This document shows, piece after piece, positions 4,136 through 7,837 of a stretch of 64,000 bases of DNA; within the stretch, counting starts at the first letter, position 1, and each line of letters opens with the position of its first letter. Position numbers and translations under genes: made by a program. This DNA is from an uncultured Pseudomonadales bacterium (lineage in GTDB: Bacteria > Pseudomonadota > Gammaproteobacteria > Pseudomonadales > Azotimanducaceae). The stretch is from assembly GCA_937775265.1 (NCBI GenBank), contig CALKBV010000007.1, positions 248,001 through 312,000 of the forward strand. The letters run 5' to 3'. The notes under the pieces are model-generated. The model saw only the letters and a list, made by a program, of their open reading frames with translations, made no database searches and was not told the origin of the DNA.

Positions 4136-4474
4136 ATGGCGATTCACGACCGAGGCGCAGATTCTATGGCCGAATCACGGCAAAACACTCAGGAGCGGGT
4201 ATGGCAGATCGTGTACCAAATCCCAAAAGGTCAAGTCGCCACCTATGGCCAGATCGCCAGACTGGCTGGTATTCCCAGACATTCAAGGCTGATCGGCCGA
4301 ATAATGTCAGGGCTTCCCCCCAACACCCGATTGCCATGGCATCGCGTCATCAATTCACAGGGAAGAATCACCAATCCGGCGAAGGATCGGCAGCAATCAA
4401 GACTCGAGAAAGAAGGCGTAACCCTGATTAACGGTCGAGTCAGCCTGAAGGTTTACGGTTGGGACACCAACTGA
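4136..4474 (+). CDS. Alkyltransferase-like protein (ATL, O6-alkylguanine sensor)
   Basis: 112 residues, the size of the DNA-binding half of O6-methylguanine-DNA methyltransferase. The active-site motif PCHRV is replaced by PWHRV (67-71), the hallmark of ATL proteins. These bind alkylated guanine, flip it out without repairing it and hand it to nucleotide excision repair. The helix-turn-helix with the finger arginine (GQIARLAGI and the following RLIGRIM) is present. An alternative start is Met11 at 4166; neither start has a strong ribosome site. It diverges from groES and its 3' end overlaps the 3' end of ampG by 22 bp. Tentatively E. coli YbaZ/Atl-like. Confidence 0.88.
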   Translation: MAIHDRGADSMAESRQNTQERVWQIVYQIPKGQVATYGQIARLAGIPRHSRLIGRIMSGLPPNTRLPWHRVINSQGRITNPAKDRQQSRLEKEGVTLINGRVSLKVYGWDTN

Positions 4475-5748
4475 GCCCGCTCATATCGAGACAGCCAGAC
4501 GACCAGCAAGATCGCGGGGATACCTAACATCGCTGCGACGACGAAAAACTCAAAGTAACCAAAGTTATCCACCACCAACCCGGAAAAACCGGATATGAAC
4601 TTACCCGGCAGCGTCATCAGTGAACTGAATAGAGCGTATTGAGTCGCCGTGTACGCCCTGTTTGTGAGACTCGACAGATAGGCGATGAAAGCCGTCGCTG
4701 CAAACCCACCGGAAATATTATCCGCAGAAATTACAATCGCCAAGTAAGAAACCTTGGGCTCCAGAACACTCAGGGAAGCGAACAGCAGATTGGTTACCGC
4801 AACAGCAACAGCACCAATAAGGAGCGGCCTCATCAGTCCCCATTTAACAACCAGAACACCGCATATTAATGACCCCGCGATACTCATGAAGAAGCCGAAT
4901 ACCTTGGCGACATTGGCTATTTCAGTTTTGGTGTAACCCATATCCAGGTAGAAGGGGGTCGCCATAATGCCCATGGCAATATCACTTAACCGAAAAACAG
5001 CGATGAACAGCAGTATGATGAAGGCGACTTTGCCATTTCGCGAGAAAAAATCAATGAAAGGCCCCGCCACTGCTCTGGTAAACCATCGCCTTAGACCAAT
5101 CGCTGACAACTCAAGCGCAAAGGCTTCAGACTGGCGGTCAGGCTCTGCCACCAAGACAACCGTTATTACGCCAACCAGCATTAGCGTTGCCATGATGATG
5201 TAAGAGATAGTCCACGAAAAATACTCGGCAAGATACAGCGCGCCGGCACCAGCAACCAGCAGCGCTAATCGGTAACCAAAGACATAAGCAGCAGACATCG
5301 CTCCCTGATACTCGGGCTCTGCAGACTCGATTCGAAACGCATCAATGGCGACATCCTGCGTCGCAGACGAAAATGCAACGAGAAAAGCACAACAACTTAA
5401 AATAAGTAAATCTGAAGGACCGATGAGAGACATGAGCACCAGACCGCACGCTATCCCTATCTGCCCGATCAGCATCCAGCTTCGACGCTGACCCAGGATT
5501 TTCGTCAGAAAAGGAATCGGAATCGAATCAACCACAGGCGCCCAAAGCACCTTGGTGGAATAGGTAATACCAATCCAGGCAAAAAATCCAATGGTACTAC
5601 GACTGACATTCCCTTCCGTTAACCAAGCGGTCAATGTAGAGAACACAAGCAGGAACGGCAAGCCACCAGAAAAACCCAGAAAGGTCATCGTAATAACCCG
5701 GGGATTGGTATAAATCAGCAGAGTTTCCCGCCAGGTTAGATCCTGCAA
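4453..5748 (-). CDS. ampG: AmpG-like muropeptide MFS permease
   Basis: 431-residue inner-membrane transporter with about 12 hydrophobic segments. It imports GlcNAc-anhydroMurNAc peptides released during wall turnover so that cytosolic AmpD (encoded at 13.1 kb) and others can recycle them. AmpG features: GFSGGLPFLL near residue 25, the WLTEG.VSRSTIGFF segment, KVLWAPVVDS near 68, and SATQDVAIDAFR near 130. It lies 7 bp after yajQ on the same strand, suggesting co-transcription. The shared presence of ampD supports recycling as the job. Confidence 0.9.
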   Translation of the reverse strand: MQDLTWRETLLIYTNPRVITMTFLGFSGGLPFLLVFSTLTAWLTEGNVSRSTIGFFAWIGITYSTKVLWAPVVDSIPIPFLTKILGQRRSWMLIGQIGIACGLVLMSLIGPSDLLILSCCAFLVAFSSATQDVAIDAFRIESAEPEYQGAMSAAYVFGYRLALLVAGAGALYLAEYFSWTISYIIMATLMLVGVITVVLVAEPDRQSEAFALELSAIGLRRWFTRAVAGPFIDFFSRNGKVAFIILLFIAVFRLSDIAMGIMATPFYLDMGYTKTEIANVAKVFGFFMSIAGSLICGVLVVKWGLMRPLLIGAVAVAVTNLLFASLSVLEPKVSYLAIVISADNISGGFAATAFIAYLSSLTNRAYTATQYALFSSLMTLPGKFISGFSGLVVDNFGYFEFFVVAAMLGIPAILLVVWLSRYERAQLVSQP

Positions 5749-5755
5749 GTGCCAC

Positions 5756-6238
5756 CTAGTCCCGAAAATTGTTATATTGCAGAGGAGTGTCGATTTCTTC
5801 TTCCTTGAGCATACTCATCACTTGCTGCAGGTCATCCCGTTTCTTTCCGGTTACCCGGACTTTCTCACCCTGAATCGCCGCCTGAACTTTCATCTTCTTG
5901 TCTTTGATCATTTTCACGACTTTTTTCGCAAGAAGGCTTTCGATTCCCTCCTGGATTTTGATGTTCTTGTGCAGCAGCTTTCCGACGTGTTCCTGGTCTC
6001 CGATATCCATCACCCTGGGATCAATCGACCGTTTGACCAGTTTCGCCCTGAGTATGTCAATCATCTGGTCCAGCTGAATATCCGCTTCAGCGGTGATGCG
6101 TACTACATCTTCTTTGCGTTCAAATTTCGCATCAACGCCGCGAAAGTCAAAACGGGTCTCAATTTCCCTGTTCGCCTGATCCACCGCATTAGTGACCTCG
6201 TGAAAATCTACCTCTGAAACCACATCGAATGAAGGCAT
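5756..6238 (-). CDS. yajQ: YajQ family nucleotide-binding protein
   Basis: 160 residues covering the whole YajQ/UPF0234 family: [11 protein letters not shown] start, [12 protein letters not shown] near residue 24, and a C-terminal [20 protein letters not shown] ending. Cytosolic; members bind nucleotides, and in Xanthomonas and Pseudomonas a homologue is reported to bind cyclic di-GMP and affect transcription. It is divergent from a degenerate GGDEF protein 76 bp away, which may be more than coincidence. Followed by ampG after 7 bp. Confidence 0.95.
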
Positions 6239-6314
6239 GTTTATTTACCCCTATATTCTTTAAACTATTTATCGATTTAATGTACAAGCATACCAACTGC
6301 ATCAGTGAACCACT

Positions 6315-7265
6315 ATGTTTGACCAGCCGGTTGTTGTCGTCGTCAAAGGAGGAAATTCGATTCTCGACTTCCTTGATGATGGTCTAATGAGGTTTTCGAA
6401 CAACCGAATTTGTTTTGGGGCAGTTAATGCCCTGCAGGTACTTGAAGACGCCCCCGCGAACGTCGTCATCATGGAAATGGACGCTGGCGAGATGACTGGC
6501 TTCGAACTCGCTGAAGCGATTCGCGATATCGACGAAGAACGAAACCACTTCACTTATATTATCCTTGTCGGCGCGATTGACCATGAGCGAGTCCAACTGG
6601 ACGATTTTCACCAGGCGATCGATACGGTCACAGGCTCCAAGCGAGTGGACGTCATGGAACACTTGGCGCTAGCAGGAGCCCGAATCTCCCTGCAAATGAA
6701 CACTTTGCGCGCCTCAAACGATTCTCTGCAGCTCCTGTGCAACAACCTCAGGAAAGGCCAGTTGCTGGATCCACTAACAGGACTCGGCAACCGGGAATAC
6801 GCGGAGCAGGCGCTCAACGACACAATTCAGCAAGTGGAATCCCGCGGCGGGGCGGCATGCATTGTGATGATTTCTGTCCACAACTACGAAGAAGTGAAAG
6901 AGACATACGACAGCTCTATTGCCGGCGAACTGATCGTTAATATATCTGAGCGAATCCAAAGACTGGTACGGCCATTGGATGTTGTAACTTATTTTTCACC
7001 GGGTCTGTTTGCCCTGGTCCTGATACAGCCCAATATCGAACAGTGCACAGCCGAATGCTATAAACGTATTTTTGATGGTGTGCGTCTCAAGAGTTACACA
7101 ACGACGGCGGGCTTTCAGCCGGTCTCAATTGGGATGAGCATCTGTGCCGCTAGCGCTGACACCGGCGCCCCAACCATGGGCAACATGATCAAGTTCGCCA
7201 CAAAAGGACTAGACGAGTCAGTGCGAACTGAATCTATTATGGTTCACCACATCATACCAGAGTAA
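6315..7265 (+). CDS. Degenerate receiver / degenerate GGDEF protein
   Basis: 316 residues with two recognisable but apparently inactive signalling domains. Residues 1-128 look like a response-regulator receiver: IILVGA strand near 82-87 and MTGFELAEAIR at 60-70. The phospho-acceptor Asp position is Glu54 (in VVIMEMDAGEM) and the acidic pair at the N-terminus is absent. Residues about 150-310 look like a GGDEF domain: DPLTGLGNR at 152-160 is typical, but the GGDEF signature is replaced by SPGLF at 228-232, so no cyclase activity is expected. It may act as a nucleotide-independent adaptor or a sensor. btuR follows 11 bp later. yajQ is divergent. No RxxD-type inhibitory site was recognised. Confidence 0.75.
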   Translation: MFDQPVVVVVKGGNSILDFLDDGLMRFSNNRICFGAVNALQVLEDAPANVVIMEMDAGEMTGFELAEAIRDIDEERNHFTYIILVGAIDHERVQLDDFHQAIDTVTGSKRVDVMEHLALAGARISLQMNTLRASNDSLQLLCNNLRKGQLLDPLTGLGNREYAEQALNDTIQQVESRGGAACIVMISVHNYEEVKETYDSSIAGELIVNISERIQRLVRPLDVVTYFSPGLFALVLIQPNIEQCTAECYKRIFDGVRLKSYTTTAGFQPVSIGMSICAASADTGAPTMGNMIKFATKGLDESVRTESIMVHHIIPE

Positions 7266-7276
7266 ACAGAAAACCT

Positions 7277-7837
7277 ATGGGCAAGCGACTTTCAAAAATC
7301 TACACACGCACCGGAGATGACGGAGAAACAGGGCTGGGCGATGGTAGCCGAGTTAAGAAGACCCACCCCCGCGTAGAAGCCATGGGCAGTGTGGATGAAT
7401 TGAATAGCATTATGGGCGTAGTTGTTGAGGGGTTAATCCTGGAAGGCTTTGATGATCTCATCGAGATCGCAAACTTTATGCGATCGCTCCAGCATCGGAT
7501 ATTTGACCTGGGCGGAGAGTTGTCCATTCCGGGTTTCGAAATCGTTACCCAAGATCATGTGATCGCTATCGAAGAACACCTGGATGCTCTTAACAAACAT
7601 CTTGACCCGCTTGAAAATTTTATCCTGCCCGGCGGGTCCGCACTCATCGCAAACTGTCACATGGCAAGAGCGATTTGCAGGCGAGCCGAACGCAATGTCG
7701 TTCTACTTGCAGAAAGTGAGGTTGTGAATACGGCGTCAAAGGAATTTTTAAACAGACTGTCAGACTATCTGTTTGTCGTCGCCAGAAGCTGCGCGCGCAT
7801 TACAGCAATCGATGAAGTCCTCTGGCAAAAAGGTTAG
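7277..7837 (+). CDS. Cob(I)alamin adenosyltransferase, PduO type
   Basis: 186 residues. It transfers the adenosyl group of ATP to cob(I)alamin, giving coenzyme B12. The ATP-binding N-terminus KIYTRTGDDGETGLGDG (6-22) and the motif CRRAERNVV (about 133-141) identify the PduO/EutT-like family, distinct from CobA/BtuR. It follows the degenerate GGDEF gene by 11 bp and converges on aceF with 8 bp between stops. The B12-binding protein gene btuF lies 5 kb away, consistent with salvage of external cobalamin. Confidence 0.95.
   Translation: MGKRLSKIYTRTGDDGETGLGDGSRVKKTHPRVEAMGSVDELNSIMGVVVEGLILEGFDDLIEIANFMRSLQHRIFDLGGELSIPGFEIVTQDHVIAIEEHLDALNKHLDPLENFILPGGSALIANCHMARAICRRAERNVVLLAESEVVNTASKEFLNRLSDYLFVVARSCARITAIDEVLWQKG

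Follow-up and report, generated by a model that had tools for sequence, protein, structure and literature searches.

Degenerate GGDEF domains with an intact I-site are known as receptors of cyclic di-GMP (c-di-GMP), and SgmT, PopA and ActA are the precedents (PMC3509222). The GGDEF domain of Myxococcus SgmT is degenerate, carries RxxD and is described as binding c-di-GMP, with the binding abolished by R763A (PMC3509222). Residues R763, D766 and R794 of SgmT, the secondary Arg lying 31 residues on, correspond to R219, D222 and R251 of the protein described here; unlike the latter, SgmT is a histidine kinase of the hybrid type. Caulobacter PopA and Myxococcus ActA have, like our protein, one or more receivers and a GGDEF domain with degenerate A-site and intact I-site. 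They differ from it in that its clade has no phosphorylatable receiver, and homology by descent is shown for the domains only. A pseudo-receiver is also present in Caulobacter ShkA, where it is reported to bind c-di-GMP (PMC7010744). Like the pseudo-receiver of ShkA, which took on another role, the receiver-like half of our protein has lost phosphorylation; the ligand site of ShkA is on the pseudo-receiver, whereas the putative site of our protein is on the GGDEF domain. PleD shares the fold of the GGDEF half (Z 17.8 to 2wb4), but is an active cyclase regulated by phosphorylation and has two receivers.

PA4396 of P. aeruginosa is called a degenerated DGC in one source (PMC11889090). In another it is a GGDEF protein of unassigned activity, up 2.08-fold in maturing biofilm, and a cyclase according to the abstract (PMC13128677). 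Deletion of PA4396 slightly raised attachment (PMC9355167). PA4395 is described as a YajQ protein that binds c-di-GMP, and YajQ of E. coli as preferring ATP or GTP (PMC4199771). Our protein is probably orthologous to PA4396, and in its relatives yajQ and ampG stand beside the gene, as they do at the present locus. We take PA4396 to be an orphan REC-GGDEF protein adjoining yajQ PA4395. Genomes of family f21, presumably Pseudomonas-like, have the gene divergent from yajQ and coding for D-x-QHF motifs; these members keep an intact receiver, unlike our protein. In the open-access literature, neither c-di-GMP binding by PA4396, nor its motif, nor a report of a clade with pseudo-receivers was found. 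Receptors with degenerate A-site and intact I-site are thus an already known kind; a class-wide family with stepwise loss and unbroken I-site appears, as far as seen, to be new.

Pseudo-receiver and degenerate GGDEF domain

The window, i.e., the whole analysed stretch of 64,000 nucleotides, has at positions 6315–7265 of the forward strand an ORF that starts with ATG and codes for 316 aa. According to Pfam and alignment, the product, a signalling protein of a marine bacterium, consists of a pseudo-receiver and a degenerate GGDEF domain. The receiver-like half is formed by residues 1–125 (6315–6689, + strand), with a Response_reg match at residues 37–87 that is below the Pfam cut-off (16.3 bits, cut-off 30.2). 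The GGDEF domain was matched at residues 151–299 (6765–7211, + strand) with 53.2 bits at a cut-off of 23.8. Among the 27 members of alignment A1, Response_reg was recognised at E 0.01 or better in 25 and GGDEF in all. PleD entries were the best PDB sequence matches (5.7e-08). The earlier note on this DNA, which described a receiver with Glu at the phosphorylation site fused to a dead GGDEF domain, is confirmed, and the losses are deeper than it stated.

Genus-mates at 72–95% identity have the same features, and both halves are held by purifying selection, so the features are not a sequencing artefact; the persistence of both folds, assumed in the note, agrees with the selection. In close pairs, dN/dS was mostly 0.1–0.3 for either half. 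One value for the receiver half was 1.2, resting on very few changes, and several dS values were saturated and unusable.

By alignment, the receiver half is clearly homologous to intact receivers. In homologues whose receiver is normal, the phospho-Asp column is exactly that of Glu54 (6474–6476, + strand), as claimed. K11-G12 (6345–6350, + strand) stand at the columns of the acidic pair, Gly86 (6570–6572, + strand) at that of the switch Thr/Ser, and V105 at that of the aromatic switch; the conserved-Lys column is occupied by S108, with K109 adjoining. Judged from these residues, phosphorylation of the protein is not plausible. It had also been proposed that Glu54 mimics constant phosphorylation and locks the receiver in the active state. 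Within the clade Glu predominates here, with 20 of 29 pseudo-receiver rows from the window's taxonomic family, but conservation in relatives was not borne out, since the remaining nine carry Q (3), D (2), A (2), G (1) or H (1). The site thus varies, and the acidic pair, the Thr/Ser switch and the aromatic switch are lost together with it; for these two reasons the mimic was rejected and is considered very improbable.

Two AF2 models built on eight close relatives gave a pLDDT of about 50 or less for the receiver half, the second one, with the receiver alone, reaching 50. The confidence stays low, and a receiver fold is therefore assigned by homology instead of by the model. The GGDEF half was modelled moderately, with block means about 59–82 from residue 170 on, and it aligned to known GGDEF structures at Z 17–18 over about residues 146–314.

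SPGLF (residues 228–232; 6996–7010, + strand) replaces the GGDEF motif, and the alignment puts it in the GGDEF column; neither this site nor the Asp column had been misplaced in the first reading. S187, K195 and G204 are at the columns of PleD D327, N335 and D344, which are a metal-binding Asp and guanine contacts. Catalysis is not plausible for such a protein. With the A-site, phospho-Asp, acidic-pair and switch residues all replaced, both enzymatic activities are very probably gone, as had been suspected. A further rival is an allosteric sensor whose degenerate A-site binds GTP or some other nucleotide. In its favour, the GGDEF fold persists and binding of this kind is reported elsewhere among degenerate GGDEF domains (PMC10333796), but metal and guanine contacts are unconserved at every column tested, and we give this possibility hardly any weight.

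Retention of the I-site

The I-site motif RxxD is represented by RPLD at residues 219–222 (6969–6980, + strand). Arg251 (7065–7067, + strand) is in the column of PleD R390, the second I-site arginine. Arg177 (6843–6845, + strand) may be a secondary I-site contact.

The order-level sample contained 96 distinct ORFs, of which 5 were ordinary cyclases and 91 were members of the protein family. GG[DE]EF was present in 0 of these 91, and RPxD with the second Arg in all of them. Other gammaproteobacterial orders were then added, giving 159 rows, 16 with the canonical motif and 143 without it. In the dead-motif rows, RPxD and Arg177 were both kept in 143/143 and the second I-site Arg in 142/143, the exception being L284. 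Near-identical and contained rows were removed before counting, and the counts cover loci returned by the searches and 80 chosen regions, which is a part of all the genome matches.

Controls were GGDEF matches of the own genome, top matches of one further GGDEF search, and 40 other chosen GGDEF places. Canonical GGDEF controls of the same order carried RxxD in 65/67 rows, the second Arg in 23/67, and both in 22/67; degenerate GGDEF controls from outside the family carried RxxD in 2/5 and both in 0/5. Two gapped rows of one ORF (L110) were left out of the control set. This ORF (G000:C15 84239-84763), from the window's own genome, has a GGDEF domain without RxxD (GGGKAFRYGGEEF, with a gap at the Arg) and was matched in two pieces.

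Ten canonical family members of other orders already carry RPTD and the second Arg, and therefore RPxD with the second Arg was inherited and retained, not gained anew. RxxD by itself was not accepted as proof of receptor function, because 65 of the 67 canonical controls have it. Since the I-site comes from active ancestors and RxxD is near-universal in active GGDEF domains, its retention could also be structural.

With moderate confidence, we regard the protein as a c-di-GMP receptor that derives from a diguanylate cyclase now dead, independent of phosphorylation and of the PopA, SgmT and ActA kind. Binding, output and partner are what we infer from the losses, the I-site retention, selection, synteny and co-occurrence with EAL proteins. 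C-di-GMP would bind the I-site residues R219, D222 and R251 of the GGDEF domain and, as with PopA and SgmT, the bound ligand would change dimerisation or partner binding of the protein. Members of the wider family would have the response to c-di-GMP gated by a phosphorylatable receiver. In the clade of the window, the receiver is a pseudo-receiver, for which reason a response to c-di-GMP without phosphorylation is expected. If the receptor reading is true, a largely unstudied annotated regulator, including the likely orthologue PA4396, is a c-di-GMP receptor. Active, inactive and doubly inactive members in one family make the transition from enzyme to receptor testable across orthologues.

A scaffold or sensor role had been suggested before, and of the two the sensor is the best reading, while a ligand-free scaffold stands as its rival. 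In that case the dead protein would pair with an active receiver-cyclase or another protein and control it, and RPxD would be kept for folding or for a dimer face. Tandem pairs of a dead copy and an active REC-GGDEF protein recur in the family (L106, L246, L276, L280), and active members also keep RPxD. At the window copy, however, no active cyclase adjoins the gene, whose neighbours are yajQ, ampG and an adenosyltransferase, and the joint retention of three I-site residues over 143 rows is not explained better by a scaffold than by binding. We consider the scaffold rather unlikely.

Distribution and history of the family

According to genome searches, 96 of 390 genomes have the family at the order level, and 46 of 369 at the class level. 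In a FastTree analysis rooted on two ordinary cyclases, the canonical members of other orders are placed outside those members from the window's order that are degenerate. All 29 pseudo-receiver rows from the window's taxonomic family group in a single clade (support 1.0), with the full protein as well as with the GGDEF half alone. In IQ-TREE, computed with 96 rows and with long branches flagged, a branch with support 100/100 separates the 15 pseudo-receiver rows of that set from the others. Some deeper nodes are weakly supported in FastTree, such as that above the degenerate rows as a whole (0.226 and 0.844), and outside the order the A-site may therefore have been lost once or several times.

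Members with intact GGEEF occur in other gammaproteobacterial orders, and for this reason a history of stepwise loss is likely, in which an active cyclase lost catalysis and then, in the taxonomic family of the window, phosphorylation, with the I-site kept. At two loci of other orders (L276 1417-3700, L280 1395-3312), the gene for a dead REC-GGDEF protein immediately precedes that for an active family member. The arrangement suggests an old pair of dead and active members.

A second branch of the family is located in a complete chemosensory operon of two genomes, G013 from the window's genus (L288 1089-15174) and G489 from the same taxonomic family (L289 2139-14586). The genes are arranged in the order TonB_C, MCP, PilZ (G013 only), dead protein, active REC-GGEEF cyclase, CheY-like, CheA, CheW, CheR, CheD, CheB, and GGDEF-EAL. 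With its cyclase, its GGDEF-EAL protein and, in G013, PilZ, the operon places a dead family member inside a c-di-GMP circuit, which speaks for the receptor reading. A broader scheme is possible rather than probable. The family would be a conserved gammaproteobacterial regulator with two stepwise losses, from a phospho-regulated cyclase to a phospho-gated receptor and to a phosphorylation-free receptor, with the I-site untouched; the pseudo-receiver would have been co-opted for a new partner or ligand, and a part of the family recruited into the chemosensory operon.

Co-occurrence with the c-di-GMP system and gene neighbourhood

Of 120 genomes from the window's taxonomic family, 55 carry the family gene. 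EAL domains, for which a separate count was made, were found in 55/55 genomes with the gene and in 37/65 without it (Fisher 1.3e-9), with a median of 8 and 1 EAL domains, respectively. Against the receptor reading, the gene is missing from seven genomes that have at least five EAL domains. The excess of EAL holds within nine mixed genera (p 1e-4, 45 genomes) and among the 36 genomes of at least 85% completeness (p 0.002), in a test that leaves out gene-less genomes whose genus was not stated. The co-occurrence is partly due to genome size and shared ancestry, both only partly controlled. A small c-di-GMP system is also present in the genome of the window itself, with further GGDEF matches, one PilZ match and a strong match to EAL.

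The divergent neighbour of the gene, recognised by Pfam and by comparison of neighbours, is yajQ (DUF520) at 5756–6238 (− strand), which the gene faces as the note had said. AmpG-family muropeptide transporter is coded at 4453–5748 (− strand) as the conserved outer neighbour. Upstream, yajQ was divergent in 49/96 rows and ampG, oriented likewise, in 44/96; the adenosyltransferase followed downstream in 27/96, where some contigs end early. The yajQ neighbourhood, whose conservation in relatives had been left for checking, is real and old.

The adjacency could mean that YajQ is the partner and that both neighbours form one c-di-GMP-responsive unit. It is found in about half of the rows, as given above, and yajQ is present in 31/31 relatives with the gene and in 19/27 without it; over the 120 genomes, the figures are 49/55 and 43/65 (p 0.004). 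Against such a unit, yajQ is missing from 6 of the 55 genomes with the gene, persists at sites from which the gene is absent, and has no association with EAL (70/92 genomes with EAL, 22/28 without, p = 1). The partnership is therefore quite improbable. The link of yajQ to c-di-GMP drawn in the note holds as far as adjacency is concerned, but yajQ does not track the c-di-GMP system; as a c-di-GMP link it was weakened by this and by its persistence where the gene was lost.

Five genomes (L192, L197, L198, L199, L201) represent such empty sites. In these, ampG and yajQ face the adenosyltransferase across 236–340 bp, without any match to the gene at E 1e-4. Four of these genomes belong to the window's genus; three of the four are devoid of GGDEF matches, and the fourth has one. 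Such clean loss in genomes poor in GGDEF domains favours the receptor reading.

Scans of the locus for promoters and terminators gave nothing above shuffled expectation. A stretch of about 31 bp by the yajQ start (window 6236–6317), with TATTCTTTAAACT in it, is conserved over most of its length in seven relatives.

The B12 enzyme that the gene had been said to precede is a PduO-type cob(I)alamin (corrinoid) adenosyltransferase at 7277–7837 (+ strand), beginning 11 bp after the stop codon. The two genes are possibly co-transcribed, and no functional tie between them was seen. At two other loci (L006 954-1488, L035 2169-2703), the adenosyltransferase was matched in two pieces 13 bases apart, which may be a frameshift or an assembly error.
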